Assembly: GCF_038725785.1 (NCBI RefSeq)
Contig: NZ_CP109796.1
Span: 4,836,001-4,900,000 of the forward strand
Direction: 5' to 3'
DNA from: Termitidicoccus mucosus
GTDB lineage: Bacteria > Verrucomicrobiota > Verrucomicrobiia > Opitutales > Opitutaceae
DNA: 64,000 bases
A program made the position numbers and the translations under genes. The notes beneath the pieces were generated by a model. The model searched no databases, was not told the DNA's origin, and saw only the letters and a list, made by a program, of their open reading frames with translations. Shown here one piece after another: positions 10,400 to 38,921 of this stretch; the first letter of the stretch is position 1, and every line of letters starts with the position of its first letter.

Positions 10400-11515
10400 A
10401 TGGATACATTGGAACAAGTCGTTGAATATGGTCTCGGACGTCATGCGTCCGACGTTCACGTGTGTCTGGATGAGGCCGTCGCATTGCGCGTCGATGGGGA
10501 TATCGTCAAATTTCCCGAGGCCAGGACCCCCAAGGCGTTTTTCGACAACCTGCTCAGCCGGCTCCAGCCCGCCCAGCGGACGGCGTTTGTGGAGCAGGCG
10601 CACGCGGCTGATTTCGCGATGAATTGCGCGGGGCAGGACATGCGCTGCCATCTTTTCCATGCCGGCGGGAAACCCGTGCTGGCGATCCGTTTCATGCGCA
10701 GCCGCATCCCGACCATGGATGACGTGATGCTGCCGGCGGCCTTCCAAAAGGTCATCAAGGAAGGACGTCCCACGGGGCTGATTCTGGTGACGGGCTACAC
10801 CGGGTCCGGCAAATCGACCACGCTCGCCGCGGCGATCGACTGGCTGAATCAAAACAGTGACCTGCACATTGTCACCTTGGAGCATCCGGTGGAGTATCGT
10901 TACAAGTCCGTGCGCAGCGTCATCCGCCAGCGCGAGGTGGGGCGCGACGTGGTGAGTTTCGGCGCCGGCATGGTGGACGCGATGCGCGAGGACCCCGATG
11001 TGATCCTGATCGGCGAGCTCCGCGACGCCGAGACGGTCAAGGCCGCGGTCTCCGCCGCCGAGACGGGGCACTTGGTTTTCGGCACGCTGCACACCCGCAC
11101 TGCGGCGAGCACGATCAGCCGCATCCTCGATGTCATTCCCGCCGACGAGCGCGACCAAGTGCGCACGATGGTGGCCTCGTCCCTGTTGATGGTGATCGGG
11201 CAGCGCCTTATCGCCCGGGTGGGCGGCGGGCGCGTGGCCGCATTTGAATTGTTGCTAAATTGCCCCGCGGTGGCCGGTGCGATTCGGGAGAACAAGCCCG
11301 GCCAGATCGCCAATGAGATCGCCGTCAAAAAAGACATGGGCATGATAGATTTCGATACATGTTTGGTTGATTACGTTCGTAAAAAACTTGTAACTCCTGA
11401 AACAGCCATCTCCACCTCCGACAAGCCCGATGAGATCCGGAAGCGCCTCGGCCTGAGCCTGCGGCCCGCGCTGGGTGGCGCGGCGAAGCCTACCATGTCG
11501 GGAGGGCTCCGGTGA
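10400..11515 (+). CDS. pilT: PilT-like type IV filament ATPase
   Basis: Hexameric cytoplasmic AAA-type secretion ATPase; PilT family members drive pilus retraction. Length is 371 aa. The N-terminal ASDVH motif (16-20) is followed by Walker A GYTGSGKST (132-140), an Asp box (HIVTLEHPVEY), Walker B VILIGELRD (201-209) and the His box GHLVFGTLHTR (223-233). The C-terminal segment FELLLNCPAVAGAIRENK matches PilT rather than PilB, and the PilB N-terminal domain and Cys tetrad are absent. It heads the filament cluster and overlaps the secretin start by four bases (GTGA). Finding the retraction motor as first gene next to the secretin suggests a dynamic filament rather than a pure secretion piston; that last point is inference. 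Confidence 0.93.
   Translation: MDTLEQVVEYGLGRHASDVHVCLDEAVALRVDGDIVKFPEARTPKAFFDNLLSRLQPAQRTAFVEQAHAADFAMNCAGQDMRCHLFHAGGKPVLAIRFMRSRIPTMDDVMLPAAFQKVIKEGRPTGLILVTGYTGSGKSTTLAAAIDWLNQNSDLHIVTLEHPVEYRYKSVRSVIRQREVGRDVVSFGAGMVDAMREDPDVILIGELRDAETVKAAVSAAETGHLVFGTLHTRTAASTISRILDVIPADERDQVRTMVASSLLMVIGQRLIARVGGGRVAAFELLLNCPAVAGAIRENKPGQIANEIAVKKDMGMIDFDTCLVDYVRKKLVTPETAISTSDKPDEIRKRLGLSLRPALGGAAKPTMSGGLR
11500..11506 (+). promoter_or_regulatory. Ribosome binding site deciding the GTG start of the secretin gene
   Basis: The purine run gggaggg lies 5 bases before GTG at 11512, inside the 3' end of the PilT-like gene. It supports GTG over the later in-frame ATG at 11536. Confidence 0.65.
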
Positions 11516-13203
11516 AAAGACCAATTCAAACCAAGATGAACTTACTCCGTTGCCAGAATCTCCGTCGTCGCGCCGCCATTGTGATCATGGCTCTCTCTCT
11601 CTGCCCGGTCCTTCATGCCGTCGCGCAGCAGCAGCCGGCTCCGGTGCCCATCGAGGAGGCGTTGCTTCGCCAAGTGCCATATTTCAGTCAGGACAGCCAG
11701 CCTCTGGCGAAAGTGTTGCAGGCGCTCGGTCGCACCAACGGCATCAGCATCATGTGCGAGAAAGCCGTCGAGGGAGAGGTGAATGTGGAGTTTCACAACA
11801 TCACCCTCCGCGGCATTCTCGACGCACTTTGCGTGCAGGAGGGTTATTACTGGGACATCGAGGACGGCGGCTACGTTATGGTGCGCCGCTTCAAGACCTT
11901 CATTTATCAAGTCGAGTATCCGACGCTGGAGCGCAAGGGGTCGTCAAAATCCAATATCAATCTCGGGCAGACAAACTTTGATGCTTCCGCTGGAGGAAGC
12001 GGGGGCAGCGGAGGCAGCGGCGGCGGCGGCCGAGGAGGCGGCAGCGGCGGCGGCGGGGGAGAGGAAGACAGCGCAAGCGTTTCCCTTGAGATGACCACGG
12101 AAAACCAGTTCTGGGATAAAATTCAGCAGGAGCTCGACGCGGTGAAGGGCAAGGACGAGCGCGTCGTGTTCGATCGCTTTGCCGGCACCATCATGGTCAC
12201 CGGCTCGCGCCATACCCACGAGCATATCGCAAATTTCCTGAGCAATATCAACGGGCGCATCGCCCAGCAGGTGGAGATCGTCGGAAAAATCATCGAGGTG
12301 CAGCTCAACGACCAGGAAAAGCTCGGCATCGACTGGCAGCTTGCCGCCTCGTCGGTCGGAGATCTGATGATCGGAGGTCCTGTCGCGGGCTTGTATGAGG
12401 CGGGCAAGCTGAAAGGCTCCACCAACCTCACGAGCAGCGTCCTAGGCGGATTTCAGTTCGATGGGGATTCCTTTACCGGCTCGATTGGCATCGGCAAGCT
12501 GGACGCGCTCATTCAGGCGCTGTCCCAGCAGGGCACGCTCAACGCCATCACCTCGCCCCGGCTGGTCACGCTGAACAACCAGACGGCCTACATCAAGGAC
12601 ACCAACGATGTGCCGTATTTCCAGCGCCAGTCATCCTCCCAGATGTCCGGCGGAATTAACAATACCGCGATGACCAGCGAGACCTACAACGTCTCCACCA
12701 TTTCCATCGGCACCACGGTGGCGATCACACCGCACATCGCGGACAACGGCGACATTACGCTCGATATCACGCCGGCGATCACCCGGCTCGACAAGGAGAT
12801 CACGGCGCCGGACAATTATTCCAAGGCTCCCGCGCTTTTCGTGAAGATGACCTCCACGATCATCCGCCTGCGCTCTGGGGAGACCGCCATCATCGGCGGG
12901 TTGATCACCGAGGAAGAGGCCGACACCACCCGGTCGGTTCCCGGCCTCGGCAAGATTCCGTTTTTGGGCCGGCTTTTCCGCACAGAGGCCAAATACAAGG
13001 CCAAGAGCGAACTGGTCATCATGCTCACGCCGCGCATTCTCCAGCCGGGCGCCAGTTTGTCGGCCTCCGACCAGCGGGCCGCCGCCGCGCTGAGCCGCGG
13101 GGTCCGCGCCCACACCGGGAGCGGCATGAGCGTCGTTCCCGCGCCCTCGCCTGCGGTGTCTTCCACCGGTCGCACCGTCGAGGCCATCTCCCTGCTGGAC
13201 TGA
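11512..13203 (+). CDS. Secretin of the type IV pilus/type II secretion class (PilQ/MshL-like)
   Basis: Outer-membrane ring channel through which the filament or substrate passes. The 563 residues comprise an N-terminal signal region (hydrophobic 20-36, cleavage after AVAQ), one STN-like short N-domain (66-125: VLQALGRTNGISI, GILDALCVQEGYYW), a Gly/Ser linker at 160-184, a second N-domain (GRIAQQVEIVGKIIEV), then the secretin core with the family end signature VPGLGKIPFLGRLF around 475-490. It is short for a PilQ, with no AMIN domains. Start GTG overlaps the upstream stop. It is the first partner of the cluster and probably needs a pilotin that is not visible here. Akkermansia Amuc_1098 is a possible analogue from memory. 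Confidence 0.9.
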   Translation: MKRPIQTKMNLLRCQNLRRRAAIVIMALSLCPVLHAVAQQQPAPVPIEEALLRQVPYFSQDSQPLAKVLQALGRTNGISIMCEKAVEGEVNVEFHNITLRGILDALCVQEGYYWDIEDGGYVMVRRFKTFIYQVEYPTLERKGSSKSNINLGQTNFDASAGGSGGSGGSGGGGRGGGSGGGGGEEDSASVSLEMTTENQFWDKIQQELDAVKGKDERVVFDRFAGTIMVTGSRHTHEHIANFLSNINGRIAQQVEIVGKIIEVQLNDQEKLGIDWQLAASSVGDLMIGGPVAGLYEAGKLKGSTNLTSSVLGGFQFDGDSFTGSIGIGKLDALIQALSQQGTLNAITSPRLVTLNNQTAYIKDTNDVPYFQRQSSSQMSGGINNTAMTSETYNVSTISIGTTVAITPHIADNGDITLDITPAITRLDKEITAPDNYSKAPALFVKMTSTIIRLRSGETAIIGGLITEEEADTTRSVPGLGKIPFLGRLFRTEAKYKAKSELVIMLTPRILQPGASLSASDQRAAAALSRGVRAHTGSGMSVVPAPSPAVSSTGRTVEAISLLD

Positions 13204-13243
13204 TTCATTCTTCCATCAGGCCTCCTTTCGTATCCACGTCTCC

Positions 13244-15037
13244 ATGCCAGCCGCCGCCACACCTTCAGCCGCCGCTCCTGCAAAATCCTCCAGGACGCGT
13301 CCGCCCGTGCCCGTCGAGCTGGCCAAGGTGCAGCAGGCCCGCCAGGAGCATGATTTTGTCTGGATGCCGCGCGTCCTGAAGGAAAACGGCATCGGCGCAT
13401 CGAGCATCAAGATCGCCACGGATTATTTCAACCAGCAGGGCCGCCGCCAGAGTTACGGCGGCGTGCTGGTGGAGCTGGGCATCCTGCCCGCCGCTGCCGT
13501 GGCCAAGATGATCGCCGAGCATCACGGGCTCCAGTGCGTGTCGCTCATGGGGGTGCGCATTCCCGTCGAGGCCGTGCGCCTGTTGTCGCCCTCGGTGGCG
13601 CGCCGCCTGCGCGCGATCCCGCTGCGCCGCGTCAATGCGAAGGTGAGCGTCGCCATCACCGACCCGGCGGTTCCCGGCTTCGCCGAGGTTGCCGGCTCGT
13701 TCCGCCGCTTCGGGGTGAACGAAGTCGAGTATCTGGTCGCGCCCGAGGCCGAGGTGCTGGCCCGCATCGATGAGATGTATGCCACGCGCGCCGATGTCTC
13801 CGACCCGGGGCGTTTCTTCGACCTGCTGGTGGCCGACGCCGTCAACATGGGGGTGTCGGACATCCATCTGGTGCCCGAGGAGACGCTTTCGCAGATCAAG
13901 TTCCGCATCGACGGCGTGATGCACCCCTACAAGGTCATCGAGGGCGCGGTGCGCGATTCCATCTTTGCCCGGGTGAAGATGAAGGGCGGCCTCGACATCG
14001 CCATCCGCCACATCCCGCAGGACGGGCGCGCGAAGCTTGTCGTGGGCGGGCGCAAGGTGAACATGCGCTTCAACGCGCTGCCCACCCTTTACGGCGAGAG
14101 CATCGTCATCCGCATCCTCGACCAGTCGAAGGGCATCGTACCGCTCGACCGGCTCGGCATGCTCGACGATACGAAAGCCGCGATCCTGAAGGCGGCCAAC
14201 GCGCCCTTCGGCTTCACCTACTTCGTCGGCCCCACCGGCTCGGGCAAGACCACCTCGCTCTACTCGATCATCAACACCCTCGACGTTTCGAATTACACGA
14301 TGATGACGCTGGAGGACCCGATCGAATACGAGTTCCGCAACATCCGCCAGACCGAGGTCACCGAGCAGCTTACCTTTGCCATGGGCCTGCGCGCCCTCCT
14401 GCGTCAGGATCCCGACTACATCCTCGTGGGCGAGACCCGCGACGGCGAGACCGCCGAGCTCTCCATGCGCGCCGCGCTCACCGGCCACACCGGCTTTTCC
14501 ACCCTGCACGCCAACACCGCGCTCGGCGGCATCACCCGCCTCATCGACATGGGCGTGGAGCCGAGCATCATCATCGGCGCGGTGAATCTTTTTGTGTCCC
14601 AGCGCCTCATCCGCCGCCTCTGCGAGTGCAAGGAGCCGCACCCGCAGAGCGAGGCGATTGCCGGCATCCACGGCATCAGGCTGGAGCCGGGGCAGACCCT
14701 TTATCGTCCGAAACCCGGGGGCTGCGCCTTGTGCGGCGGCAATGGCTACAAGGGCCGCGTGGGCCTTTATGAATGCCGCCCGGTGGAGCCCTTTGCCGAC
14801 ATCATCGTGCGGCTGGGCAAGGACGCTTTGCGCGAGTGTGAGACGCTCGCGAGAAAACTTTGTGCGACCGAAACCGAGCAGACCGGAAGCTCGATTTTCC
14901 GCACGCTCCGCCAGGATGGATTCATCAAGGCGGCGCAGGGGCAGACCTCGATCGACGAGGTGGTTGCGCAGACGGAGGCGCCGGAAGGCGATTCCGAAAT
15001 TCCGGAAGCAACAACACAAAACACACAGATAACATGA
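13244..15037 (+). CDS. PilB/GspE-type assembly ATPase
   Basis: Cytoplasmic extension motor of type IV filaments. The 597 residues begin with a Pro/Ala-rich tail, then a GspE N-terminal domain (GGVLVELGILPAAAVAKMIAEHHGL, split here only by description), the NTPase core with Walker A GPTGSGKTTSLY near 329, Walker B region LVGETRDGETAEL near 394 and His box GHTGFSTLHANTA. A zinc-type Cys pair set follows, CECK near 459 and CALCGG near 494, which PilT-type ATPases lack. It lies 40 bases after the secretin and overlaps the pilin start by four bases (ATGA), so ATPase and pilin are translationally coupled. Confidence 0.93.
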   Translation: MPAAATPSAAAPAKSSRTRPPVPVELAKVQQARQEHDFVWMPRVLKENGIGASSIKIATDYFNQQGRRQSYGGVLVELGILPAAAVAKMIAEHHGLQCVSLMGVRIPVEAVRLLSPSVARRLRAIPLRRVNAKVSVAITDPAVPGFAEVAGSFRRFGVNEVEYLVAPEAEVLARIDEMYATRADVSDPGRFFDLLVADAVNMGVSDIHLVPEETLSQIKFRIDGVMHPYKVIEGAVRDSIFARVKMKGGLDIAIRHIPQDGRAKLVVGGRKVNMRFNALPTLYGESIVIRILDQSKGIVPLDRLGMLDDTKAAILKAANAPFGFTYFVGPTGSGKTTSLYSIINTLDVSNYTMMTLEDPIEYEFRNIRQTEVTEQLTFAMGLRALLRQDPDYILVGETRDGETAELSMRAALTGHTGFSTLHANTALGGITRLIDMGVEPSIIIGAVNLFVSQRLIRRLCECKEPHPQSEAIAGIHGIRLEPGQTLYRPKPGGCALCGGNGYKGRVGLYECRPVEPFADIIVRLGKDALRECETLARKLCATETEQTGSSIFRTLRQDGFIKAAQGQTSIDEVVAQTEAPEGDSEIPEATTQNTQIT

Positions 15038-15837
15038 AACGTAACATCACATCCCGCAAGGGCTTTACCCTTGTCGAAATGCTCGGCGTGCTCGCCATCA
15101 TCGCGATCCTCATCTCCGTGATCGCGGTCGGTGTCATGTCCGCCATCAACCGTGCCCAGATCGTGGCGACCACCTCCAACCTCAAGAACCTCGAGACCTC
15201 GACCATCGGTTTCGTGGCCCTGAACACATCGGGCGGCACCGTTCCGATCACCGAGGGGCCGGGCGATGCCCTCACGGGTGGTGCAGCCACGCCGCTTGCG
15301 ACCTTCGATCCGACGGCTCCCGCCGATCCGGTTGTTTTCGCTGCCTTGGACAACACCTATACCTTTGACCAAGTGCTGCGCGCCGCTGGCTTCATTGACA
15401 ACCAGATGTCGTGGCGGGTCGGACAGTCCGGGAACACCCAGAATGCTGCGGCCAATGAGCGCGTCTTCATCATCAGCCGCAATGCCTTCAGCACGGCCGG
15501 TGGTGCCGGCAATGCCTGGGACAACTACAACCGGTCGGAAGCCTCGATCATCGTCCCCGCCCAAATAGCGGCCGCCACCGGCCCCGCGGCGACTTTTGGC
15601 GCCAGCGGTGTTGACTTCCTGTTGGATGGTGTCAACGGCCTGCAGGCCGCCCGTTGCGCCTATGTCGTGCTCCAGGGTGTCAGCATCAAGCATGCGCAGG
15701 CGCTCTCCCGCGAGCTCAACGCTGGCATGGACGACTCCGAATTCCAAGCCTTCCAGTCCCGCGGCCGCTTCGTCTATGCCGCCCCGGCTGCCGGCGCCAC
15801 GACGGTCACCTGCTATTACTACCTGGCCAGCTTCTAA
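15034..15837 (+). CDS. Type IV prepilin (likely major subunit)
   Basis: Filament subunit processed by a prepilin peptidase not encoded in the window. It has 267 residues from the ATG at 15034. The cleavage motif is SRKG/FTLVEM with Gly10 at -1 and Glu15 at +5, followed by the hydrophobic helix LGVLAIIAILISVIAVGV. The long C-terminal head contains only two cysteines, Cys208 and Cys260, placed to close a C-terminal disulfide loop as in true pilins. It is larger than a GspG-type pseudopilin. A strong hairpin follows the gene, a usual arrangement for keeping pilin mRNA level high. An alternative is a pseudopilin of a secretion system. Confidence 0.9.
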   Translation: MKRNITSRKGFTLVEMLGVLAIIAILISVIAVGVMSAINRAQIVATTSNLKNLETSTIGFVALNTSGGTVPITEGPGDALTGGAATPLATFDPTAPADPVVFAALDNTYTFDQVLRAAGFIDNQMSWRVGQSGNTQNAAANERVFIISRNAFSTAGGAGNAWDNYNRSEASIIVPAQIAAATGPAATFGASGVDFLLDGVNGLQAARCAYVVLQGVSIKHAQALSRELNAGMDDSEFQAFQSRGRFVYAAPAAGATTVTCYYYLASF

Positions 15838-15926
15838 TCGCGGCATAAAGACGGCGTATCGCTCATGCGCCCTCCTCGCATGAGTTTCGCTGTCTGAGCC
15901 GGATTATTGGCAATAATATAAAACGC

Positions 15927-15951
15927 GCGGGGGATGCCCGGCATCCCCCGC
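15927..15951 (+). terminator. Strong hairpin after the pilin gene
   Basis: The arms gcgggggatgc (15927-15937) and gcatcccccgc (15941-15951) are perfect over 11 bp with a 3-base loop. The following tgttactat is a poor T-run, so it may be a partial terminator or a 3' mRNA stabiliser rather than a full stop. It sits about 90 bases after the pilin stop and about 165 bases before the next gene. Confidence 0.6.
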
Positions 15952-16113
15952 TGTTACTATACCAATGATTTTGAAACAGATCTCATGTCGGCGTTCCTTG
16001 ATTTATGGGCTAATGAGTGGCACGACGGCCGTCCCTTCAGCAGAAAGACTGTTCTCAATTATAAGTGGTATAGGACCAATTGATATTATTGGAGAGCCGG
16101 ATTTTTTGATGCC

Positions 16114-17526
16114 ATGAGAAAACAGCAACAGGCCATATTCATATGGGACAAAGTCGTGTATTACTCCACGGCGAAGGGGTGGGCGCGCACGGCCATCGAG
16201 CGCGTGGAGGACGCGGCTGCGATCGTGCAGGAGCATTGCAAACGCGACAACAAGATCATGCTGCTTTATGATCCGGAAACGCTCCAGACCGAATACAGCG
16301 AATGTCCGGGCGGGGGCCGTGCAATCGTGCGCGAAGTGCTTGCCGGCAGCCACGAAAGCCTGAACAATCCGCACACCGCCTGGGGCTTCCAAACCCCGTG
16401 GCAGATATCGGCCGCCGCAGGGGGGAACCAAGGGACCTTTTGCTCCTTTGAAACGGTTCCCTCACTCTATTTGCTGAACCAGACATTGTATGATCTGAAA
16501 TATCCGGTCAGCCGTTGTTTTTCCTTTGCCAGTCTGGCCATGTTTTCCGGGACGACTCCCGGCCGCACCAATGTGTTTCTGGTGGTGGACAAGGACGGGC
16601 AGGCATTTGTCTATCTCAACACCGCCGCCGGCCTGCGCGCGGCCCGCAAAGTCTCGGCCGGCAAGCGCGAGGATTTTGACGTGTGGTCGGAAATCAGTCT
16701 GATTTTTGGCGAATATGGCGTCACCTTTGAAGATGGCGGGATGCGCCCTGTGGTGCGCCTTTATCAGGCGCCGGGCACGGATGCCAAGACACAATGCCCT
16801 TATTGGGAGACCCTGGCTGCATTCGGGCAGGTGGAGCTTCACAATTTCAGCGTCCTCGCCACCCTGCTCGCAAGCATTCCGTCCCGGCATTCCAGCTCGT
16901 TGATCGAGGATTTGCCAAAAAATATCAGCTTGAATCTCGGCCTCAAAATCGGAGCGGCGGTGCTGGCGGCCATCCTGCTGGGCGGAGGTTCCTATGCTTA
17001 TAATGACCTGAGCAAAGACTCCCGTGAGATACGGTCGCTCGAAACCCTGCAGAGCTCGCTCGCGACACAGAAAACCGGCCTTGAGCGCAACAAACGGGAA
17101 ATTGAAGAATTCCTCAAATTATATGCCAACGACCGGTTTGATTATTCCCACGGACACTTGCAGTTGCTGCAAGCGTTGGGCGGGGCCATACCGCGGGACG
17201 CCACGCTCCTCAATATAAGCATCGGGGTGGAGGCCCCCTCGAAATTCAGGCTGAATGGCATATTCTGGAACCAGAAGGTGTCGATGTCCAAGCAAACCGG
17301 AAGCACTGCGGTGAACAATGTCAGCCCCGTCACGCCGATCACACGGCATCTGGAAAGTTCCGTCCAAGGATTGCTGGTTGCTCCAAACACCAACTCATTC
17401 AACAGCCAGACGGGAGACTTCGTGCTGGAGGGCAACACGCCTCGTCCGGAAGGCGTTGCCGCCGCCACACCCGCCAGCGCGCCGCCCCCTGCTAGGCGCC
17501 CGCCCGCAACCTCAGGCAGACGATAA
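16114..17526 (+). CDS. PilM/PilN-like fused inner-membrane platform protein (GspL-like)
   Basis: Probably the inner-membrane platform subunit that links the cytoplasmic motor to the periplasmic parts. It has 470 residues. Residues 1-265 are cytoplasmic and resemble a degenerate actin-like PilM/GspL domain (FLVVDKDGQAFVYLNTAAG, 155-173). A single membrane helix lies at about 275-297 (LKIGAAVLAAILLGGGSYAY). After it comes a PilN-like coiled-coil and ferredoxin-like periplasmic part (LETLQSSLATQKTGLERN) and a Pro/Ala-rich tail. In most type IV pili these are two proteins. Its stop overlaps the next start by one base (TAATG). The assignment rests on architecture and gene order rather than a strong motif. 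Confidence 0.7.
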   Translation: MRKQQQAIFIWDKVVYYSTAKGWARTAIERVEDAAAIVQEHCKRDNKIMLLYDPETLQTEYSECPGGGRAIVREVLAGSHESLNNPHTAWGFQTPWQISAAAGGNQGTFCSFETVPSLYLLNQTLYDLKYPVSRCFSFASLAMFSGTTPGRTNVFLVVDKDGQAFVYLNTAAGLRAARKVSAGKREDFDVWSEISLIFGEYGVTFEDGGMRPVVRLYQAPGTDAKTQCPYWETLAAFGQVELHNFSVLATLLASIPSRHSSSLIEDLPKNISLNLGLKIGAAVLAAILLGGGSYAYNDLSKDSREIRSLETLQSSLATQKTGLERNKREIEEFLKLYANDRFDYSHGHLQLLQALGGAIPRDATLLNISIGVEAPSKFRLNGIFWNQKVSMSKQTGSTAVNNVSPVTPITRHLESSVQGLLVAPNTNSFNSQTGDFVLEGNTPRPEGVAAATPASAPPPARRPPATSGRR

Positions 17527-18092
17527 TGAGCGACCAAATAAAAAAAATAAAATATCACAGTTCGCCTCTATGGGTGGCGGTGGCTGTCGTGGCCGCCTTG
17601 CTTACCGTGGGCGCGGCCTATTATTATTTTGATGCCAGGAAGGCCAACCGGCAAAGAAAGGCGCAATTGACCACGCTGAATCAAAGTCTGAGAAAAATGG
17701 TGGATGGATTGGCCCCCAATTATTCGAGCCAAAAGGCGCAGGTTACCCGGGACAACGCGGCCAAAATCAAGTCCGAAATGATGAACGGCACTGAGATGGA
17801 CATGTTTGTGTCGAGCCTGCGCCCGACGTGGACGGTGCAATCGCGCAGCGAGGAGAGCAACGCGGAATATATTCACCGGCGCTACCAGATCGCGCGCGGC
17901 ACCGCCCCCGTGTCGGCGTGGTCCGAGATTCAGGCCTTGCTGGAGCGCCTGGGCAAAACGCCGTCGCTCGCGGTCAACAGCATCGACATACGAACGGTGG
18001 GCGACAGCCGCAAGCGCGAGTTCAGCCGGGTGACCATCGCCTTTTCCATCTACATCCGCAAGCCGCCGGGAGCCGAGACGCCCGGGATATGA
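17526..18092 (+). CDS. PilO/GspM-like inner-membrane platform protein
   Basis: A 188-residue bitopic protein: a short basic cytoplasmic tail, one membrane helix at about 15-33 (LWVAVAVVAALLTVGAAYYYF), a coiled coil (about 35-85) and a small alpha/beta domain (IQALLERLGKTPSLAVNSIDI) at the C-terminus. This is the PilO/GspM layout, and it follows the PilM/N-like gene with a one-base overlap, as pilO follows pilN. It should form the periplasmic alignment complex with the upstream protein and the PilP-like product at 20429. The family call is by architecture and position; no diagnostic motif exists. Confidence 0.68.
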   Translation: MSDQIKKIKYHSSPLWVAVAVVAALLTVGAAYYYFDARKANRQRKAQLTTLNQSLRKMVDGLAPNYSSQKAQVTRDNAAKIKSEMMNGTEMDMFVSSLRPTWTVQSRSEESNAEYIHRRYQIARGTAPVSAWSEIQALLERLGKTPSLAVNSIDIRTVGDSRKREFSRVTIAFSIYIRKPPGAETPGI

Positions 18093-18099
18093 TTTTGTA

Positions 18100-18246: not shown

Positions 18247-18255
18247 ATTTTATTT

Positions 18256-21142: not shown

Positions 21143-21170
21143 GCATTTTGCGGTCAATCAAAATTCCCGC

Positions 21171-30700: not shown

Positions 30701-33700
30701 ACCATGACGTTCGCGGACGGGGAGACCCGCCCCGTGTGCATCGCTTATGTCGCGGTGAGCACGATCGATCTCTATACGAACATCCCCATCCGTGCCGATT
30801 CCACGGCGTCGGGGATGGAAAATGACCATAATTCCTCCGCCACCGCCGAGCACCCCGATGGCCAGACCTACGGATTCCTCCGCTGGAAGCCCGAACGCTA
30901 CAACCATGACGTGTCCGCGGCGGGCTCTTACCTGCGTGATCTCTACGAAAACAACACCTATATCAGGCACCCGCGCTCTGCGGAAATAACAGGAGGGTCG
31001 CTCTATTACACCGCCGTTTATGCGCTGCCGGGCGCCTACAGTCTCACGCTCAGGCTGGAACTGGCCGCCCATGAGGACGGCACTCCCGTGGAGCTCGATC
31101 CGGATTACGCGAACGATTTCAAGGAAGTCTCGGGTTTCAATGATCTGGTGGGCAACATCAACGGGAGCACGCTGGATCCCTTCACCGGCAGCCCGTTGCT
31201 GTTTGTGAATCGCTCCATCCGCGAAAAACGCGCCATCATGTCCAGTCCGCATACCGAGACCTTCAGCGCCGACGATGAATTCACGTCCGGCCCGTATAGC
31301 ATCTATAAATGGACGTTTGAAAGGCCTTGGGGCAATGTGATCGGGGAAGTGACCGGCGACTCCGCCGACTTTTCCTTGGAGGGCTCGTCTCCCGCGCCGC
31401 GAGCCGCCGCGCGCGGGGCCGCCGCGTCTCCCTTCGGCGGCCCGACGGCCAGTCCGGCGGGCGGGTCGGGCTGGGGTTGGGGAGACGGAGGCTGGGGAAG
31501 GAGAGGCCAGTCCCCGGCGGGCAATTCCTACGGCATACAATCCGGCGAGACCGGGGAGTCGGAGCGCGTCACCGCCTATGTGAGCCTGCTGTGGGGCAAG
31601 ATCAGCATGACCAGGCCCGTCTTCATCCAGCCGGAGACATGGACGACCACGCCGGAGGTCGCGAATCCGGGCGGCTTCACCTTCCTCCGCTATGCGAACA
31701 CGGGGGTCCCGGCGGACATATTCTACGCCAAGGATGTCTCGCCCGCGCCCGCGCCCTACGTGAAGCAAGCCATGCGCGTGCATGGCGGCACGCCGCCGGT
31801 GCTCAACTTTGCCAGCACGCCCGCGAATTACCGCGCCGCGGGCTGGAGCCTCGACGGCACCACGACGATTGCCTTCACCCAGTCCGGGTTCAGTTGGGCC
31901 TCCTGGCCGTCAGGCTGGCCCCGGAAAGTCGAGGAAGATATCGACGTCACGCCGGTTTACATCCGCAGGATGCAAGCCACGGCGGTGCTGAAGGTGAGCG
32001 ACGAGGCCGCCTCCGGCTTCGGCAATAATTTCAACGACAAGGTTGACTTCATGTATGTCGGCACCCTCGACAAGGGGACTTCGACCCTGTCCTCCACCTA
32101 TGATTACATGGGCGGCATCCAGCTCAAGGCCACGCCCGACGCGGCGCAGTTCCATGTCCTGGAGAAATGGATCATCGAGCGGGCCAAGGCCGACGGCGGC
32201 ACGACCTTCGATCCCGCCGACACGGAGGAAGTCATCGTGACCGACTCGTCCCAGCACACGCTCAACGTCACGGTGGAGTACCCGGTCAGGGTCACGGCGG
32301 TGTTTGGCTACAAAAAATTCGACTTCCATGCCGATGTCGCCGACAGCCTCGACGGCGCCAAGCACGGCAAGGTCATGATCGACGGCAAGCCCGCCGGCGG
32401 CGACCTGTTCGTCACGGCCTCCTCCTTCTACAGCAAGGTGCACACCATCACCGCGATTCCCGACGCGGGCTATGCGTTGGCGCCCCATGTCGGATGGACG
32501 GTTTCGCCCTCCGGTCTCTCGATCCCCGCCGACCGCTTCGCGCCCGAGACCACGATCAACGTGGAGGCTGAAAAAACCGCGACCGCGCACTTCGAGCGCA
32601 TGGTCACGCTCACCATGCGGCTCACCCCGGCGGAGCTGATGGGCTCCTCGTATGCGCACCTGACGACGCCGACGGCGGGAGTCCACCACACGCTCGGCGG
32701 CAAGCAACTGGTCGATACCTCCACCGTCACCGTCGCCGCCGGCGTTGACGGCGACTATGACTTCATCGACTGGACCATCGAGGATGACAACGGCACGCGC
32801 ACCGCGGCCGGCTCCTCCCAGACGCTCAGCCTGCTGGGCAACACCATCGCGACGGCCAATTACAACCGCCTGCACGAGGTCACGCTGAGCGTCGATCCCG
32901 CGCCCTTCGCCGAGGAAAGCTCCGCGAGGATGAGCAGCTCCACCTACGCCACCGCGCCCTCGCTCACGGTCACGGCCAACGGCACCGCCACCGGCGCCAA
33001 GAAATACCGCACGGGCGCCGTCCTGAACTTCACGGCGACGCCGGGCGCGCACTTCACCTTCAAGCATTGGGAAATCGCCATCGACGGCGTGCCGCAGGCG
33101 CCGGACACGAGCCCGGCCATGACGCTCACGGTCGGCGCCCCGATCACCGCCAAGGCCGTGTATGAACCCAAAAACTACACCATCACGGTCAATCACGCCT
33201 CCCATGACATGGCGCCTCCGGGGCTCAACCCGCCCATGGCCGCGACCCTGACCGCCACCCATGCCTCGGGCTTCGGCTCCGATGTTACGCGCGACCTGCT
33301 CGCCGAGGGCAACAGCGTCACGCTGCCCTATGGCACTGACATCAGCCTCGCGACCAGCCCGGCCTTGCATTATGCCTTCCTCGAATGGACCGGCGGCGTC
33401 CCGAATCCCTCCACCGCCATGCCGCTCACATTCAAGGTGGATGGAAACCGCACGGTCACAGCTTGGTTCCAGCGCAGCCATTATCTGCTGGAAACGACGG
33501 TCCTGCCCAATGACACCAGCGGCTCGATCACCGTCATTTCCGGAACCCGGAGCGGAAACCCCAGCGTCCATGCCCGCAATGAAGTGCTCAAACTCGGCGT
33601 GGCGGACACCGCCGCGACGATCTTCCAGAAATGGGAGAACAACACCATCGACCGCGAGCGAACGGTGACCATGAACGCCGACCGTTCGCTGACCGCGACC

Positions 33701-36700
33701 TTTGTCAAGGCGGTCTATATCAAGATCGACAACGACAACGCCCGCGGCACGGTGACAGTCGAAGGCGCGCGCAAGAAGGAGGGCGACTATTACGTGTTCG
33801 CCGAGGGCGACCCCATCTCCATCAGCGCGAACCCCGCCGAGCACTACGACTTCGACCGCTGGACCTTCAGCCCCGCCAAGCCCGCGGACGCGACCGCCGA
33901 CGACAACGCGGCGCTCACCTTCACGGCCGGCGACAGCGTGGACATCACGGCGCTGTTCACGGAAAAGAACTACTCCATCAAGGTGACCGCCCAGCCGGTT
34001 GCCGGCGTGACCTCCGTCACGGGCACGCAACCGCCGTCGGGTTACCATGACTTCCTCGTGACCGACACGACCTCGCGCCTGTATGGATCGCCGGCGATGA
34101 TGGTCACGGTCACGCCCAAGGACGAACCCGGCGAGCGCTACCGCTTCGACAACTGGGACGGCAACAGCAGCCTGCCCAACCCAACCCGTGTCTGGAATTG
34201 CGACAGCAACGTCGTCTGGGTCGCGCACTTGCTGCGGCAGGCCCGGATTGTGGTTGCCGACCCGATCGACATCACGATCCATGCCGGCGGCGAGCCCGGC
34301 GGAGGCAGTGTCGTGGTTGCGCCCGGCGAATACCGCGTGGACGTGGGCGGCACCCTCGTCGTCACGCCGGCTCCCGCCGCCGGGTATGAGTTCGCCGAAT
34401 GGCGCGGACTCCCCGGCACGGGCGCAAACGTGGATATCCTCACGGACAGGCTCACCCTCGCCATCAACGCCACCAACGCGGGCGAGGACATCGTGCTCAC
34501 CCCGTGCTTCCGCAAACAGACCCACCAAGTGACCGTCAGGCAGTGGAATCAGGCGTCCGGCATGGAGGTTGACGCTGGCAGCATCAGTCTTTCGCCCACG
34601 CCCGTGTCCGGGGGGAACAAATACAACGACGGCACCGTGGTGACCGCCAAGGTCACTTCCGTTTACTCCGGCTATCGCTTCCTGGGCTGGGATACCGACA
34701 ACGATCCCTCGCACATGGTCGATGTCGCCGCGACGGCGGATATGAAATATACTTTCACGATCACGAATGGCACCACCCTCTATGCGGTGTTCAAGCCGGT
34801 GTATCGGCTGACCCTTTCGGCCAGTCCCGCCTCTGCCGGCACGGTGGCGGTGGTCGGCGCCAGCAACGCCTCCAAGGTTGACGTGAGCCCGGGCGTCTAC
34901 GAATTCGACCAAGGCACGACTGTCACCGTCAGGGCCACGGCCACCGGTTCGCTCCCATTCCTTGAATGGGTGGGGGATGTGTCCTCCGTGACATCGCCCG
35001 AAACGACGGTCGAGATGATTCAGGACCGCGTGGTCACGGCATTATTTGGTTCGCTGGTGTTTCATAATCTGACCATCAATGTTTCCCCGGCGGGCAAGGG
35101 AACAGTCTCCGCTTCGGGGGAGAGCACGCTGGTCACCCATACCCGGACAATTTCTCGCCGGGAAAACACCGATGTGGTGTTGGCTGCCGCCGTCACGGAG
35201 CCCGGATATGTGTTTGCCGGTTGGTCCGGCGACGCATCCGCTGCCAGTGCGGGCGCACTGGTGAGTATTGATGGCCCCAAGACCGTGACGGCCAATTTCG
35301 AACGTGCGATCTACGAGATCACCGCCCGTCCGCAGGTTCTCGGCACCGGCACGGTGTCAGGATTGAACGTAGATGGACGTTATTACTATGACGAAGAAAT
35401 CACGCTTACTGCCACACCGGCACCAGGGTATCATTTTGTCCAATGGATCACCAGCGGAGAGGACTTGACCCCCATCGGCACCAATGCGGCCAAGCTCGTG
35501 GTCAAACGTTCCCAGCTTGTTCTGGCGCAATTTGAACCCGACGGCGAAGGATATGGCGTTACCGTATATGTCGTCGGAGGCCAGCTCGTAAGCAAAGTGA
35601 AGATTTCGGATCCTGATTACGGGGAAGTATGGGAAATCACGGTCAGGCCGGATCAGCATCACTCGTTTTACAGGTGGGAGGGTGATGACAGCTTCGCTTA
35701 CGGGAGGCTGGAAAATGGTGATTACGTATGCAGGGTATACACAGGCGATGGTCCCAAGGAGGTGACCGCCGTCTTTGCGCTCGATGCCTATGCGGCGACT
35801 GCCGTCGCAAGTCCGGCGCATGCAGGCTCTGCCCAAATCTTTATCGAGGAGGGAACCTCATATATAAATGATGCTGGGCAGGTCGTGTATCCCGCCGGAA
35901 CCAAATTGCGTTTCATTGCGACTGAGGCCAATGGAGACTGGATGTTCACCAACTGGGACAATCTCGGCGAGATTGTGGATGACAGCAATCCCAAGAGCGT
36001 GGTCGTGCGGGTGAGGGACAGGACGATCACCGCTGTCGCCCACTTTGACCCGGTGCCAACGCTGCATCACGTTACGTTTAAGATGAACTTTATTGGAGCC
36101 CCGTGCGATCAGGCTAGGATCACGATGGGAGGCGCGACGCACAACAGGGTGGATGGCCCCATTACCAAAATATTTAGGGAAGGAGCGACCGTGGTGGCCC
36201 GTTGTGTCATCCAGCGTGACGATTCAGGTCGGGCGGTGCCGTTTATTATTGATGGCTGGCACGGGCTCGGCATACATGCTGCCGATCCGGTCACCGAGTC
36301 CGATGGTTCTGGCTCAACCGCGTCGGTCACAGTGTCGAGCGGGGATTTGATGATTACCGTGGACATCAGGCCAATCGGCGCGTTGCTTCAAACTAGGACG
36401 ACAATAGCAGGGAAGCCGGATGACGGAGTGGTTTCCACTGAAGGTGCCACAATCACGATGGGTGATCAGTATAACATAGGCGATGAGGTCATGGTCTGGC
36501 TCACGGTGAATCCAGGCTACCGTCTTGACGACAAGAATGTCACTGATGATGGCTGGAGCATCAATACCTACGGTATCATGTTGGGTGGCGCCTCCAGTGT
36601 TTTCATGGAGTTTGCCGTGGTGACGCCGGGCACGTTCACTGGTGCATCCGATGATGCAACACACAGCCATTATCGGGAGTATGCCCGGGACGCCGATGGC

Positions 36701-36955
36701 AATTATATTGTTCCGGGTCATAATCGTCGCCTTGTCATCAAGTATGATCCTTCGGACGATGCTCCCAGGCAGTATGGCAAACGGGTGCGCCTGAATGGCG
36801 AAATCACCATCGCCTCGAGCCGGGTTATCGAAGAGGGCGATGGCCCCGGTACCGGTGGTGGCGCGGAAACGAGATACCGGGTGGAATCCGAGTCCAGCAA
36901 TAGGCTGGACAGCAGTCGCAACAAATCGAGCGGATTTATGTTCCATGATGAATGA
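24788..36955 (+). CDS. Giant (4055 aa) surface/secreted protein of InlB B-type repeats
   Basis: After a signal peptide (about 11-32, FVVRIFVFILASAALHAG) almost the whole protein is made of InlB B-repeat/Flg_new-type modules, on the order of forty to fifty by eye. They are recognisable by F-x-x-W motifs (YQFDGWTA, YRFAGWDRDG, YVFAGWSG) and by ends such as VTANFE and VTAVF. Two low-complexity inserts interrupt the array near residues 956-1000 (Gly/Ser/Ala/Pro-rich) and 2202-2250 (Ala/Gly/Trp-rich). No LPxTG, autotransporter or known sorting domain is seen, and the end is a polar Ser/Asn/Arg tail. Third-position GC is lower in the first about 700 and last about 650 codons than in the middle. It likely acts as an adhesin or fibre; export by the adjacent secretin system is my inference. 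Confidence 0.88.
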   Translation: MPMINRSKLAMTPKFVVRIFVFILASAALHAGPVNSYLTVRKSDQAGIGGLVVSTPSCVLDSPASLANGTSVTLTASVPDTLTGRFLWWEHKIGGGLLVGAKQKSTDNSITITMSEADGDQEIVAVFASNAVEKSVTLKASPTAGGAVSAESESGVALDAAALASLRGSPFALIRLNGSMSPGYQFDGWTANTPLITLPSQLQGGTAMIYGDGEITGHFSVRTYSLSVTVNPSGGGRTAEVVGVSRYVSGDSATLKVTGCPADYEFVRWNKISGELAFLGGASSSTAQEVQVTLGSPEGAGWVVEAEFRKIYSGPLGAITVGAASGGYVVVRGGTIAGGSNDTFTGEIGQPLDLRANVYNTSEYEFTGWEGISGANAMTVATFAGTPQSVRALFQPRPLSFTVKVDPAAGGVLTAQSGTLSVSTGGTPTRQFPFNSRISLVASANPGYDFHKFNLLPTSLSLESVSGNTAEFIHKKASTSITATFKKRSDLQTLTVTSGSGGGVVASGSYNTYSDTSLPPADNPVITKSMNVAAGTTEAENFARDTMVRLEAVPAANHAFDGWTSSESLGASGTTSISLTGDKTVTARFRRTASALRMEVWPQAAFDAGARVKVSGAVQSGRVSETTQSSTGSVLVEAVKTGGGPESDRWVFLRWESDWPDINNTTHPSFNVNMNADRSIKAVFAARPKVTIAVAPAGAVGRAYVESDGRTQQDYNANDTATIYAEKTSPGWHFTGFTIATSSTTATVGGAPDGGKLRHQFTVTEDTTVTANFERGVSAQMWVKRVTASQPDSEEDITGINVNDRHNIKGDSYVRHGNSQNLVSMVPPASESFWFQADSSISLSATKVLDYPNGNTYRFVRWRIQNEVSGVWTETTSTSMVYNYTIPAASGSLKFFACYTDERDIQAGVELDGALLSGSVASARGITVKYDNAPLVVGTGTPDNKLQYSGSGRSLVTSSSGGGGGSPAPAPSGAPRAAGGLRSAGAPVALGGPLGAPADDVIFRGWSVTGESKGQPNSIVDLASPSTTLEVRADGSVTARYKSKIVLNVGLKTIPAGATGLTLGEMVSGTNTTTGETLAMGSGATVSLALGRGDTVTLTAQEEKKIGADTYRFAGWDRDGDGVLAEGERTTNRVLNPNTSLPESTVNAFYERMQKLTVDVIPDRNSGRVSIETVPVPPESLPYTDEYGYGRARTLKAEPGTGMRFVQWIVTGSATLSASATTAVNAIAMYSDCEAIAEFEPRPNDLEVQIRLNGGSGSVPSSLKVDADGTQLASGESKTYYYGNNAKVTAIVPPGGAYIFDRWETAAGYSPIKTAPGGAGSVDTRSNPGYVEMLGPQTVIAHYTGVHRLTLNVDTQGGGTGGTVTLDRSTSPLLPRAESGDTYTYYYNDPYGMTAAAAAGYRFIGWRIDDGSGNPPSTVASPRHSGAIRSDLTITAVFAKEYTITFEVTPRIDRIGGWVSKPSAGTTFATYTAYHGERINSVEAAPNVDYGFSFVRWIADAAALDTTGQPVNGSTSSVASLVVTGPHILTANFTQAGREIKIIAQIVVDDVPDTGKASGLGIFANGSTVPGAGTGTTLAHGDEKLYYIGDHATLDASVPLALQDTYVFMAWEEGDVATRELNPLLATKTVTAHYRTKARLTMAISPEGIGTTTPSVGAHPSGADSERDYYVGKVIPTVRTDLRSDTMDFYAFTGWTTVGGAGPQNPDSTSTSVTLDVREKALTANYVAGHKLEVRVKYESEANASQAVQFTTVAGSRTAVSSGGGNSAGIWQSGPQVINYSLRTIPDGEDIEIRAYTNSPSYRFVGWIQNEGDTPSGGPNLVVHMDSAKTYTAVFERVRVQLKVYTIPGGVDGVKAEAVTNAKLVSGEGAEPRVYEVFYGQAPTLQATSTNPDYYFSRWIRGGSYTELRPGETAITANPWSPGALTAGVTEITAYFGAGGSLRTLFLFTEPVANVDIHHVDAPGASSRTYTTMTFADGETRPVCIAYVAVSTIDLYTNIPIRADSTASGMENDHNSSATAEHPDGQTYGFLRWKPERYNHDVSAAGSYLRDLYENNTYIRHPRSAEITGGSLYYTAVYALPGAYSLTLRLELAAHEDGTPVELDPDYANDFKEVSGFNDLVGNINGSTLDPFTGSPLLFVNRSIREKRAIMSSPHTETFSADDEFTSGPYSIYKWTFERPWGNVIGEVTGDSADFSLEGSSPAPRAAARGAAASPFGGPTASPAGGSGWGWGDGGWGRRGQSPAGNSYGIQSGETGESERVTAYVSLLWGKISMTRPVFIQPETWTTTPEVANPGGFTFLRYANTGVPADIFYAKDVSPAPAPYVKQAMRVHGGTPPVLNFASTPANYRAAGWSLDGTTTIAFTQSGFSWASWPSGWPRKVEEDIDVTPVYIRRMQATAVLKVSDEAASGFGNNFNDKVDFMYVGTLDKGTSTLSSTYDYMGGIQLKATPDAAQFHVLEKWIIERAKADGGTTFDPADTEEVIVTDSSQHTLNVTVEYPVRVTAVFGYKKFDFHADVADSLDGAKHGKVMIDGKPAGGDLFVTASSFYSKVHTITAIPDAGYALAPHVGWTVSPSGLSIPADRFAPETTINVEAEKTATAHFERMVTLTMRLTPAELMGSSYAHLTTPTAGVHHTLGGKQLVDTSTVTVAAGVDGDYDFIDWTIEDDNGTRTAAGSSQTLSLLGNTIATANYNRLHEVTLSVDPAPFAEESSARMSSSTYATAPSLTVTANGTATGAKKYRTGAVLNFTATPGAHFTFKHWEIAIDGVPQAPDTSPAMTLTVGAPITAKAVYEPKNYTITVNHASHDMAPPGLNPPMAATLTATHASGFGSDVTRDLLAEGNSVTLPYGTDISLATSPALHYAFLEWTGGVPNPSTAMPLTFKVDGNRTVTAWFQRSHYLLETTVLPNDTSGSITVISGTRSGNPSVHARNEVLKLGVADTAATIFQKWENNTIDRERTVTMNADRSLTATFVKAVYIKIDNDNARGTVTVEGARKKEGDYYVFAEGDPISISANPAEHYDFDRWTFSPAKPADATADDNAALTFTAGDSVDITALFTEKNYSIKVTAQPVAGVTSVTGTQPPSGYHDFLVTDTTSRLYGSPAMMVTVTPKDEPGERYRFDNWDGNSSLPNPTRVWNCDSNVVWVAHLLRQARIVVADPIDITIHAGGEPGGGSVVVAPGEYRVDVGGTLVVTPAPAAGYEFAEWRGLPGTGANVDILTDRLTLAINATNAGEDIVLTPCFRKQTHQVTVRQWNQASGMEVDAGSISLSPTPVSGGNKYNDGTVVTAKVTSVYSGYRFLGWDTDNDPSHMVDVAATADMKYTFTITNGTTLYAVFKPVYRLTLSASPASAGTVAVVGASNASKVDVSPGVYEFDQGTTVTVRATATGSLPFLEWVGDVSSVTSPETTVEMIQDRVVTALFGSLVFHNLTINVSPAGKGTVSASGESTLVTHTRTISRRENTDVVLAAAVTEPGYVFAGWSGDASAASAGALVSIDGPKTVTANFERAIYEITARPQVLGTGTVSGLNVDGRYYYDEEITLTATPAPGYHFVQWITSGEDLTPIGTNAAKLVVKRSQLVLAQFEPDGEGYGVTVYVVGGQLVSKVKISDPDYGEVWEITVRPDQHHSFYRWEGDDSFAYGRLENGDYVCRVYTGDGPKEVTAVFALDAYAATAVASPAHAGSAQIFIEEGTSYINDAGQVVYPAGTKLRFIATEANGDWMFTNWDNLGEIVDDSNPKSVVVRVRDRTITAVAHFDPVPTLHHVTFKMNFIGAPCDQARITMGGATHNRVDGPITKIFREGATVVARCVIQRDDSGRAVPFIIDGWHGLGIHAADPVTESDGSGSTASVTVSSGDLMITVDIRPIGALLQTRTTIAGKPDDGVVSTEGATITMGDQYNIGDEVMVWLTVNPGYRLDDKNVTDDGWSINTYGIMLGGASSVFMEFAVVTPGTFTGASDDATHSHYREYARDADGNYIVPGHNRRLVIKYDPSDDAPRQYGKRVRLNGEITIASSRVIEEGDGPGTGGGAETRYRVESESSNRLDSSRNKSSGFMFHDE

Positions 36956-37370
36956 GAAGGTGCTGTATCTTCTGGCGGCGATCAAGGAGCCGGCCGCTCC
37001 CTTGATCGACTCGCGGGTGATCGATCTCGCCCTTCTGTTCGTCGGGCTGGTCGTGGCCGTAGCCGCCGTATGGCTGCAATGGGGGCATTTCAAACGCTCC
37101 CATCCGGCCCATCCGCAGGGCAGCGCGACCACCGCCCCGTTTGGCGCGAGCCCGCACCGGCGCTGGAAAAACCTCTACTGGCGCGAGGTGCGCGCCACGT
37201 TTTTCCTCGCGTTGATTTCGCTGATCATGGTCGGTTTCACCGTCGTGTTCCACAAGGAGGTGACCATGCCCGGCGTGGTCTCGATCGTCTTCTGGCTCGG
37301 AATGTTTTTCTACAACCTCTGGGTCGCGCAATGGCTCGCCTGGCGCATCGCCACCAGGCGAAAACGTTGA
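36945..37370 (+). CDS. Small membrane protein of unknown function
   Basis: It has 141 residues, starting at ATG 36945 (or the adjacent ATG at 36948) and overlapping the giant gene by 11 bases, so it is translationally coupled to it. Three membrane helices are visible at about 25-45 (VIDLALLFVGLVVAVAAVWL), 83-102 and 109-133, with basic loops (HFKRSHPAHPQ, RRWKNLYWR) that should face the cytoplasm. No motif is recognised. The position between the giant repeat protein and the DUF11 protein suggests a role in their export or anchoring; this is inference only. Confidence 0.75.
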   Translation: MMNEKVLYLLAAIKEPAAPLIDSRVIDLALLFVGLVVAVAAVWLQWGHFKRSHPAHPQGSATTAPFGASPHRRWKNLYWREVRATFFLALISLIMVGFTVVFHKEVTMPGVVSIVFWLGMFFYNLWVAQWLAWRIATRRKR

Positions 37371-37418
37371 CGCGCCCGTGTGTCCCGAGGTTCGTGTCCG
37401 CCCATCGGTAATTTTTTT

Positions 37419-38921
37419 ATGATGCAAAATCCCTCCGTCCGATTCCGCACGTGGTTTCTCGCCGCGGCCTTGCTGGCCGCGCCATTTGTCCGGTTGCCCG
37501 CCGATGGCGTGGCGCCGCCCGTGCCGCCGACCCCCGGCATCCCGCCGCCGCCCGCCGCCGCCGCGCCGCGCTTCAGCTCCGATCTCTATCGGGTGGAAAA
37601 GCAGATTGTCTCCTCGTCGGGCAGGGTGGGGGAGGAGGCGGTTTACAGCATCCGCGTGGATGCGCGCGACGACATCGAGCAGGTGCGCCTGCTGGAGATC
37701 CTCCCGCCCGGGCTCGAATACATCGGCGCGGAACCGGCGCCGGCCGAGGTCGTGAACGGCGCCTATCTCTGGGCGTGGGAGGGCATGCAGCGCAACACCT
37801 CCCGCGAGGTGCGCCTCCGTGTGCGCCCGGCGGACGGCGGATGGTTTGTCACCAATACCAAGGTGGCCGTCGTGCCCGTCGTCGCGCTGCCGCTTTTTGC
37901 GGGCCGGCCCAAGCTGCAACTCGAAAAGACCGGCCCCTCGGCCGCCGAGCTCGGCAGCGACATCAACTTCCAGCTCGTCGTGAGCAACGTCGGCACGGCG
38001 GCGGCGGAAAACGTCCGCGTCTCCGACACGCTGCCCGCCGGCCTTTACGGCGCCGACCGCAGCGGCAACGTCGTCAACTTCCACATCGACCGGCTGGCGG
38101 CCGGCGAGCGGCGCGTCTTCGACGTGCCGGTGAAGGCCGCCGTCAAGGGCGAGTGGGACAACCACGCCAACGTCTTTTTCGAGCAGGCGATCCAGGCCAA
38201 CGCCACCGCTCACGTCTCGATCGTCGAATCCAAGGTCTCCATTGCCAAGAGCGGCCCGGCGCGCGCCTACACGTTTACCGAGGCCGGCTACACCATCACC
38301 GTGCACAACGACGGCGACACCGTGCTGGAGAACATCCGGCTGGCCGACGAGGTCGTGGACGGACTGCGTTTCGTCGAGGCGTCGGACGGCGGCCAGTTCC
38401 ACCGCGACACGGTCACCTGGACGATTCCGCGCCTCGCGCAGGGCGAAAGCGCCTCCCGCACCGTGCGGCTCTCCGGCCAGAAAATCTACACCTCGACCGC
38501 CGAGGCCGTGGCGACGCTTGTCACCGGCAAGCAGGCGAAAGCCTCCGCCACCACGGTGTGGGAAGGCGCCCCCGGCGTGCTCACCGAGCTGATGGAGGAC
38601 GTCGATCCCGTGCGGGTCGGCAAAAACGTCGTCTATACGGTTCGCATCACCAACCAGAGCCCGATGACCGCGATCACCGGCGATGTGCTTCTCAAGCTGA
38701 CCGGAGAACTGCGTCCGCTGGAGGTGACCAAAAAATCCGGCGCAGCCATCGACGGGCAGGACATCATTGCGAAGGGCGTGCAGATCAAGCCGAAGGGCTC
38801 CTATACCTTCAAGGTCACGACCGAGGCCGTCAAATCCGGCATGGCGTGGGCGCGGCTGGAGTTCAGCGCCGACTTCCTGCAACGTCCCTCCGTGAAGGAA
38901 GAGTCCACCAACGTGTATTGA
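37419..38921 (+). CDS. Exported DUF11-repeat protein
   Basis: It has 500 residues from the ATG at 37419; an upstream GTG at 37380 would add 13 residues ahead of a normal signal peptide, so it is not preferred. The signal peptide is FLAAALLAAPFVRLPADG. After a Pro-rich spacer come about four DUF11-like immunoglobulin-type repeats, recognisable by phrases such as VRVSDTLPAGLYGADR, IRLADEVVDGLRFVEA and YTVRITNQSPMTAI. This module also occurs in chlamydial OmcB-type envelope proteins, but the Cys pairs of OmcB are absent. It lies 48 bases after the small membrane protein and likely contributes to the same surface structure. Confidence 0.8.
   Translation: MMQNPSVRFRTWFLAAALLAAPFVRLPADGVAPPVPPTPGIPPPPAAAAPRFSSDLYRVEKQIVSSSGRVGEEAVYSIRVDARDDIEQVRLLEILPPGLEYIGAEPAPAEVVNGAYLWAWEGMQRNTSREVRLRVRPADGGWFVTNTKVAVVPVVALPLFAGRPKLQLEKTGPSAAELGSDINFQLVVSNVGTAAAENVRVSDTLPAGLYGADRSGNVVNFHIDRLAAGERRVFDVPVKAAVKGEWDNHANVFFEQAIQANATAHVSIVESKVSIAKSGPARAYTFTEAGYTITVHNDGDTVLENIRLADEVVDGLRFVEASDGGQFHRDTVTWTIPRLAQGESASRTVRLSGQKIYTSTAEAVATLVTGKQAKASATTVWEGAPGVLTELMEDVDPVRVGKNVVYTVRITNQSPMTAITGDVLLKLTGELRPLEVTKKSGAAIDGQDIIAKGVQIKPKGSYTFKVTTEAVKSGMAWARLEFSADFLQRPSVKEESTNVY

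Follow-up and report, generated by a model that had tools for sequence, protein, structure and literature searches.

A type IV pilus locus encoding a 4055-residue InlB-repeat protein in Termitidicoccus mucosus and its counterparts in Opitutaceae

The DNA of Termitidicoccus mucosus analyzed here (the window) is a stretch of 64,000 nt of contig NZ_CP109796.1 (positions 4,836,001 to 4,900,000). Positions 10400-38921 of the window comprise 15 consecutive genes, all on the plus strand, together with one nested gene, in the order PilT-secretin-PilB-pre1-PilMN-PilO-CC1-X/CC2-PilP-PilC-pre2-inlS-giant-TM-DUF11. We called the families with Pfam and NCBIfam, and the ORF, Pfam and NCBIfam checks agreed with the ORFs and motifs that a first-pass annotation, made from the sequence alone, had placed in this region. 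Directly 3' of the locus (39193-43785), the window encodes a 1530-aa protein combining Sel1, a long coiled coil and a C-terminal LysM, of which no homologue was found in the retrieved flanks of other giant loci.

The identities of PilT, the secretin, the MshEN-bearing PilB, PilC and the two prepilins are certain. The first gene encodes a PilT-type retraction ATPase of 371 aa (10400..11515; TIGR01420, 354 bits, over the cut-off), which has the Walker A motif GYTGSGKS at residue 132 and relatives at 73-90% identity. The following secretin (563 aa; 11512..13203; PF00263, 6e-42) is closest to MshL, scoring 215 bits against TIGR02519 and thus below the cut-off of 250. The extension ATPase of the PilB/MshE (PilB/GspE) type (597 aa; 13244..15037) matched PF00437 (4e-96) and the MshEN domain (PF05157; 6e-10), and its end overlaps the start of prepilin 1 (pre1; 267 aa; 15034..15837) by an ATGA. 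This prepilin carries the signal RKGFTLVEM, scored above the cut-off of TIGR02532 and is the probable major pilin. Farther downstream lie the PilC/GspF platform protein (399 aa; 21405..22604; PF00482, 1e-45), conserved at 71-75% identity, and the large prepilin pre2 (356 aa; 22616..23686) with the prepilin signal KAFTLVE. The secretin, ATPases, prepilins and PilC of the first-pass annotation were thus all recovered, albeit in the order PilT, secretin, PilB instead of the two ATPases followed by the secretin.

The genes between pre1 and PilC include candidates for the PilM, N, O, P alignment complex, recognized by position and topology. The GspL/PilM+N-like protein (PilMN; 470 aa; 16114..17526) has an N-terminal domain, one transmembrane segment (TM) and a periplasmic part, and its relatives keep 49-53%. 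It is followed by a PilO-like inner-membrane protein (188 aa; 17526..18092), assigned by topology and position, while a PilP-like protein (237 aa; 20429..21142) was assigned by its position. The names given in the first-pass annotation derive from position, topology and length; none of the three proteins matched a family profile in Pfam or NCBIfam, and the PilMN alignment retrieved noise only from PDB profiles. In addition, CC1 (260 aa; 18256..19038), a coiled-coil protein with a signal peptide, is conserved in synteny.

The ORF X465 (19035..20432) wholly overlaps a second conserved gene in another frame, CC2 (19279..20172), coding for a TM coiled-coil protein of 297 aa with 52-59% identity to its relatives. 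In 7/7 genomes, X465 is open across the whole of CC2, and in three of them (G000, G004 and G126) its last 4 nt are shared with the gene that follows. Its product has a conserved N-terminus, a Gly-rich middle and a Lys-rich C-terminus. We had first taken X465 to be nothing more than a frame shadowing CC2, which was rejected by codon-shuffle and divergence tests. Synonymous shuffles based on the T4P codon table left X465 open by chance with a probability that did not exceed 0.0074 in any genome; with its own codons permuted, it was at most 0.043, the worst case being G007. The third-position difference between G000 and G001 was 0.165 for CC2 against 0.464 for PilMN and 0.287 for PilO, and that between G004 and G125 was 0.099 against 0.368 and 0.439, respectively. 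The value for CC1 was likewise low in the former pair (0.166). Judged from these sequence comparisons, dual coding of X465 and CC2 is likely the best reading.

Four genes for non-pilin proteins follow pre2, all of which had been described in the first-pass annotation and were confirmed here, the two InlB proteins by matches to PF18998 and the DUF11 protein by a match to PF01345. The protein termed inlS (340 aa; 23759..24781; PF18998, 1e-36) is secreted and has four InlB B-repeats, and the giant (4055 aa; 24788..36955; PF18998, 1e-99) comes next. The giant stop is overlapped by 11 nt by the gene of a small multi-TM protein (141 aa; 36945..37370), and a secreted DUF11-repeat protein (37380..38921; start likely at 37419; PF01345, 3e-37) completes the locus. 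The latter also matched Chlamydia OMP6 (PF03504) weakly, and its orthologues share the C-terminal VKEESTxVY, slightly varied in G126.

The PF18998 repeats in the InlB proteins of the locus scored above the gathering score. With an iterated profile, we detected ~35 InlB-like repeats at ~95-aa spacing across residues 16-3781 of the giant, among which 16 repeat stretches pass on Pfam alone. By inspection the giant starts with a Sec signal peptide, and it ends with a ~275-aa C-terminus free of repeats. PF18998/PF09479 were the only domains detected. The giant thus shares a repeat family (PF18998) with Internalin B, but the Pfam search found neither a leucine-rich repeat nor a Gram-positive anchor in it, and we do not regard it as an internalin. 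In inlS, the giant, the TM protein and the DUF11 protein, we recognized no domain of an exporter or of an outer-membrane anchor, and Sec is the only export signal that we identified in the giant. An alignment of inlS retrieved noise only from PDB profiles.

The machinery comprises an extension ATPase, a platform PilC, a secretin, prepilins with the N-methyl motif and a dedicated PilT. The type II secretion system (T2SS) is devoid of a retraction ATPase, and the presence of PilT therefore marks the machinery as a type IV pilus (T4P) and not as a T2SS. Scores against GspD, GspE and GspF stayed under the cut-offs for the secretin, ATPase and PilC-like protein, respectively, although GspF was the top-scoring NCBIfam family for the PilC-like protein. 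This last match would suit an alternative in which inlS and the giant are not displayed on a pilus but released as soluble matrix proteins in a TcpF/CofJ- or T2SS-like manner, as would the giant having no visible cell-wall or outer-membrane anchor and the precedent of TcpF (PMC9565799). We nevertheless consider soluble release improbable, since a retraction ATPase is present and a repeat chain of 4055 aa would be more typical of a tethered fibre.

Had the first-pass annotation been right in proposing a dedicated unit of pilus and giant, synteny was expected in relatives, and this expectation was borne out. By tblastn and ORF comparison, the 15 genes have one and the same order in the genome of the window (G000) and in four others (G004, G125, G126 and G007), which together represent three genera, as exemplified by contig NZ_JAQFIP010000018.1 of Ereboglobus sp. 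PH5-10 (G004), in which the full order is kept. This synteny rules out that the giant is a general InlB protein placed here by accident. The giant orthologues are 4389 aa (G004), 4883 aa (G126) and ~3888 aa (G007) in length; that of G125 is split near the start by an apparent frameshift into a frame of 309 codons and an overlapping one of 4132. In the joined L102-L104 of G125, which cover the giant N-terminus, the split may be an error or a real mutation. In G000, G004 and G126, neighbouring genes from pre2 through inlS, giant and TM to DUF11 overlap by up to 35 nt or are separated by at most 80 nt. Between pre2 and the giant no strong terminator was found, terminator-like matches being overall no more frequent than in shuffles.

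The giants align end to end and evolve fast, with 33-37% identity between genera against 71-78% for PilB and PilC. Such a difference is what would be expected of an exposed partner of the pilus. It bears on the idea that the giant stays inside the cell as a periplasmic or envelope strut of the pilus machine, for which one could invoke the other envelope coiled-coil proteins of the operon, CC1 and CC2, and a giant with no export signal identified beyond Sec. We regard this idea as very improbable, because the low identity across genera suggests exposure and an extended chain of ~35 domains would be far longer than the periplasm.

The system-specific PilMN protein gave high scores in 7/252 Opitutaceae genomes, and the small TM protein was also found in 7/252, its orthologues being confined to genomes with the giant-type system or fragmentary MAG relatives. 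Among the 165 good-quality Opitutaceae genomes, both markers single out exactly G000, G004, G007, G125 and G126, a coincidence with a chance of ~1e-9 by our arithmetic, which ignores shared ancestry. In a class sample searched for pre2 and a phylum sample searched for PilMN, the markers were found only in Opitutaceae; the pilus part occurs also in one MAG labelled Puniceicoccales (L101). The carriers may be linked to insect-gut hosts, a lead drawn in part from record titles.

The co-occurrence of PilMN and TM across the 165 genomes likewise supports a dedicated unit, but the physical linkage is not obligatory. Separability of pilus and giant genes in relatives, one of several findings that together would have refuted the first-pass annotation, is seen in one MAG of the same genus, G001 (72% complete). 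There inlS and the giant come after uvrC instead of pre2, and pilus genes are on contigs other than that of inlS and the giant; searches of this incomplete MAG recovered neither PilC nor pre2. If this contig is right, the pilus and giant halves can live apart, which weakens the claim of a single operon, but not that of co-occurrence.

In our main rival explanation, inlS, the giant, TM and DUF11 would constitute a surface-adhesin module of their own, exported and anchored independently of the pilus, merely co-inherited with the T4P, co-regulated with it and complementary to it. The location apart from the pilus genes in G001 fits an independent module, as does its possession of an own membrane protein, the orthologues of which co-occur with the module. 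Furthermore, large InlB proteins in G053, G056, G022 and G011:C33 are away from T4P genes, indicating that a pilus is not in itself required for a protein to have InlB repeats. Against independence, its four proteins bear no recognized exporter or outer-membrane anchor domain, and the adjacency to pre2 recurs in a sister type of T4P with a different InlB protein, as detailed below. We judge an independent module to be unlikely, albeit clearly less so than soluble release.

A profile of pre2 retrieved ~60 full-length relatives in T4P loci of Opitutaceae, and we examined the DNA downstream of 49 further pre2 relatives. Twenty-seven of those 49, plus three retrieved earlier, gave 30 complete sister loci, which have the order PilC-pre2-X-secretin-PilB-pre1, followed by PilMN where checked. 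The gene in the slot X begins where pre2 ends or close to that point, and its product is 411-1720 aa long, has a signal peptide by inspection and bears InlB B-repeats (PF18998) in 30/30 sister loci. Thus, the pairing of pre2 with an InlB protein exists independently of the giant. In the present genome, six ORFs have InlB matches, three of which directly follow a pre2-type prepilin, and the giant sits right behind one of these three. The pairing leaves practically no room for pilus and giant being neighbours by chance: the separate location in G001 would suit chance, but five genomes of three genera have the same order and an InlB protein follows pre2 in every sister locus.

Trees of PilB and PilQ separated the loci with a giant (T1) from their sister loci (T2) as two clades. 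The InlB pairing with pre2 is common to both lineages and may have had one origin or two. We take the recurrence of this pairing across the family as the strongest argument that the prepilin and the InlB protein may work together. There are exceptions: in G007_5194 the secretin directly follows pre2 with no InlB gene between them, and a more distant group of pre2 has no InlB gene beside it. Slot proteins (L155-L185, L059, L060, L062) share a C-terminal tail of ~45 aa, LKYRxxxRTLLQ...PFVLEKP, behind repeats of variable length, which is possibly a docking or sorting signal. Neither the giant nor inlS shows the sister-type tail RTLL...PFVLEKP, but a weaker tail is particular to the giants, reading RSSGHxID in those of Ereboglobus and being less strict in G000 and G007. 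An AlphaFold model of pre2 built from 46 sequences (pLDDT 77.9), which superseded a first model from five sequences (pLDDT 48), has a long pilin helix and a many-stranded head. Foldseek found no fold match for it in the PDB (best E 0.02, TM 0.14), and a PDB profile search matched the pilin helix alone and no cargo-binding fold, so that the predicted structure speaks neither for nor against pre2 as a carrier.

The T2 loci of this genome follow VirB4/TraG-like and TrbI/VirB10-like genes, and the same block of type IV secretion system (T4SS) genes lies upstream in all 16 other T2 loci examined, as well as in G011 and G007_5194, as far as the contigs reach. Two widely separated chromosomal regions (L059:1-16000 and L060:1-16000; G000:C1 at ~425-441 kb and at ~7614-7630 kb) carry T4P loci that are nearly identical, include the gene of a 585-aa InlB protein and are preceded by T4SS genes (TraG P-loop, TrbI). 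These are probably parts of a conjugative element, whereas no T4SS genes were recognized beside the giant locus. An element with both a T4P and a mating adhesin would parallel IncI plasmids, in which a conjugative thin pilus has the PilV adhesin, as in TP114 (PMC9045228). The sister T4P type resembles the IncI pilus in adjoining T4SS genes and carrying a variable adhesin-like protein, but PilV is itself a minor pilin, and here the InlB-repeat protein is separate.

Beyond the observed gene set, gene order, co-occurrence and pre2-InlB pairing, and beyond the repeat architecture of the giant and its rapid divergence, we propose, with moderate confidence, that the locus encodes a dedicated T4P plus an adhesive fibre, the giant being linked to pre2 and carried by way of the secretin. 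The pilus would be built and retracted by PilT, PilB, PilC, the secretin and the GspL/PilO/PilP-like proteins, with pre1 as its probable main subunit and the large prepilin pre2 probably at the tip or in low abundance. After reaching the periplasm by Sec, inlS and the giant would dock on pre2, directly or one via the other, and the growing pilus would carry them out through the secretin. Displayed as a long chain of ~35 small beta domains, the giant may bind a surface, toward which retraction by PilT would pull the cell. The docking, the export route and the adhesion are inferred. With its repeats being small domains arranged one after another, a ~430 kDa chain might conceivably pass through the secretin; TcpF is far smaller than the giant.

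The steps of Sec export, prepilin docking and secretin carriage follow the precedents of TcpF/TcpB and PilY1. PilY1 is displayed at pilus tips (PMC10191384). Like PilY1/PilC1 of type IVa pili, the giant is a large non-pilin protein tied to a T4P and a prepilin; unlike PilY1, it has InlB repeats in place of PF05567, is 4055 aa long and is encoded beside a large prepilin. A search of six genomes for PF05567 found no match, the controls being equally silent. TcpF is carried by the minor pilin TcpB through the secretin in a system devoid of a retraction ATPase (PMC9565799). The giant is similar to TcpF/CofJ of type IVb pili in being an operon-encoded, non-pilin protein exported by Sec (signal peptide by inspection), and by analogy it would ride pre2 through the secretin. 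The present system differs in having PilT, no N-terminal signal of the TcpF (T4bP) kind was recognized, and the pre2 model is without a PDB match. Finally, the MSHA pilus has MshQ as a putative adhesin (PMC7096442). The MshL-like secretin, the MshEN extension ATPase and a large putative adhesin in the locus recall MSHA, but the MshL score is under the cut-off, the gene order is different, PilT lies inside the operon and the giant has no MshQ family match.

T4P with an operon-encoded non-pilin partner are therefore known (PilY1, TcpF/CofJ and MshQ), so that the first-pass statement that no such system had been described holds in part. What is new here is the InlB-repeat type of the partner, its size and its pairing with pre2; the library of papers that we searched contained none on InlB repeats, whether in connection with T4P, in Verrucomicrobia or in general. 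Altogether, the first-pass interpretation is partly supported. If the proposed pilus-borne fibre is real, it would be a new class of non-pilin adhesin on pili, with InlB repeats to 4883 aa and no PilY1 domain, and would offer a testable pair of prepilin and cargo in >30 loci. It would also raise how a ~430-kDa repeat chain would cross a secretin. More tentatively, the Opitutaceae may have a general cassette of pre2 plus an InlB protein, in which the large prepilin carries an InlB protein of variable length on a T4P, serving conjugation machines (elements of T4SS plus T4P; proteins of 0.4-1.7 kaa) and, in insect-gut lineages, having been converted into a chromosomal attachment organelle (fibre of 4-5 kaa). 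Pilus adhesins of conjugative elements and gut attachment would then be linked in a poorly studied phylum.

T4P clusters were also noticed on other replicons. G000:C2 (102402 bp), in which secretin matches recur at a distance of 51195 bases, has the appearance of a 51.2-kb plasmid present twice in head-to-tail arrangement, which might be an artefact of the assembly, and one copy of its T4P cluster appears broken into short frames; a plasmid collection searched for the replicon gave no match. The second replicon of G007 (G007:C2, 99831 bp; L064/L111/L112) has a T4P cluster with PilT and CC1- and CC2-like genes, in which a 580-aa InlB ORF lies upstream of PilT and the secretin groups with the giant type.
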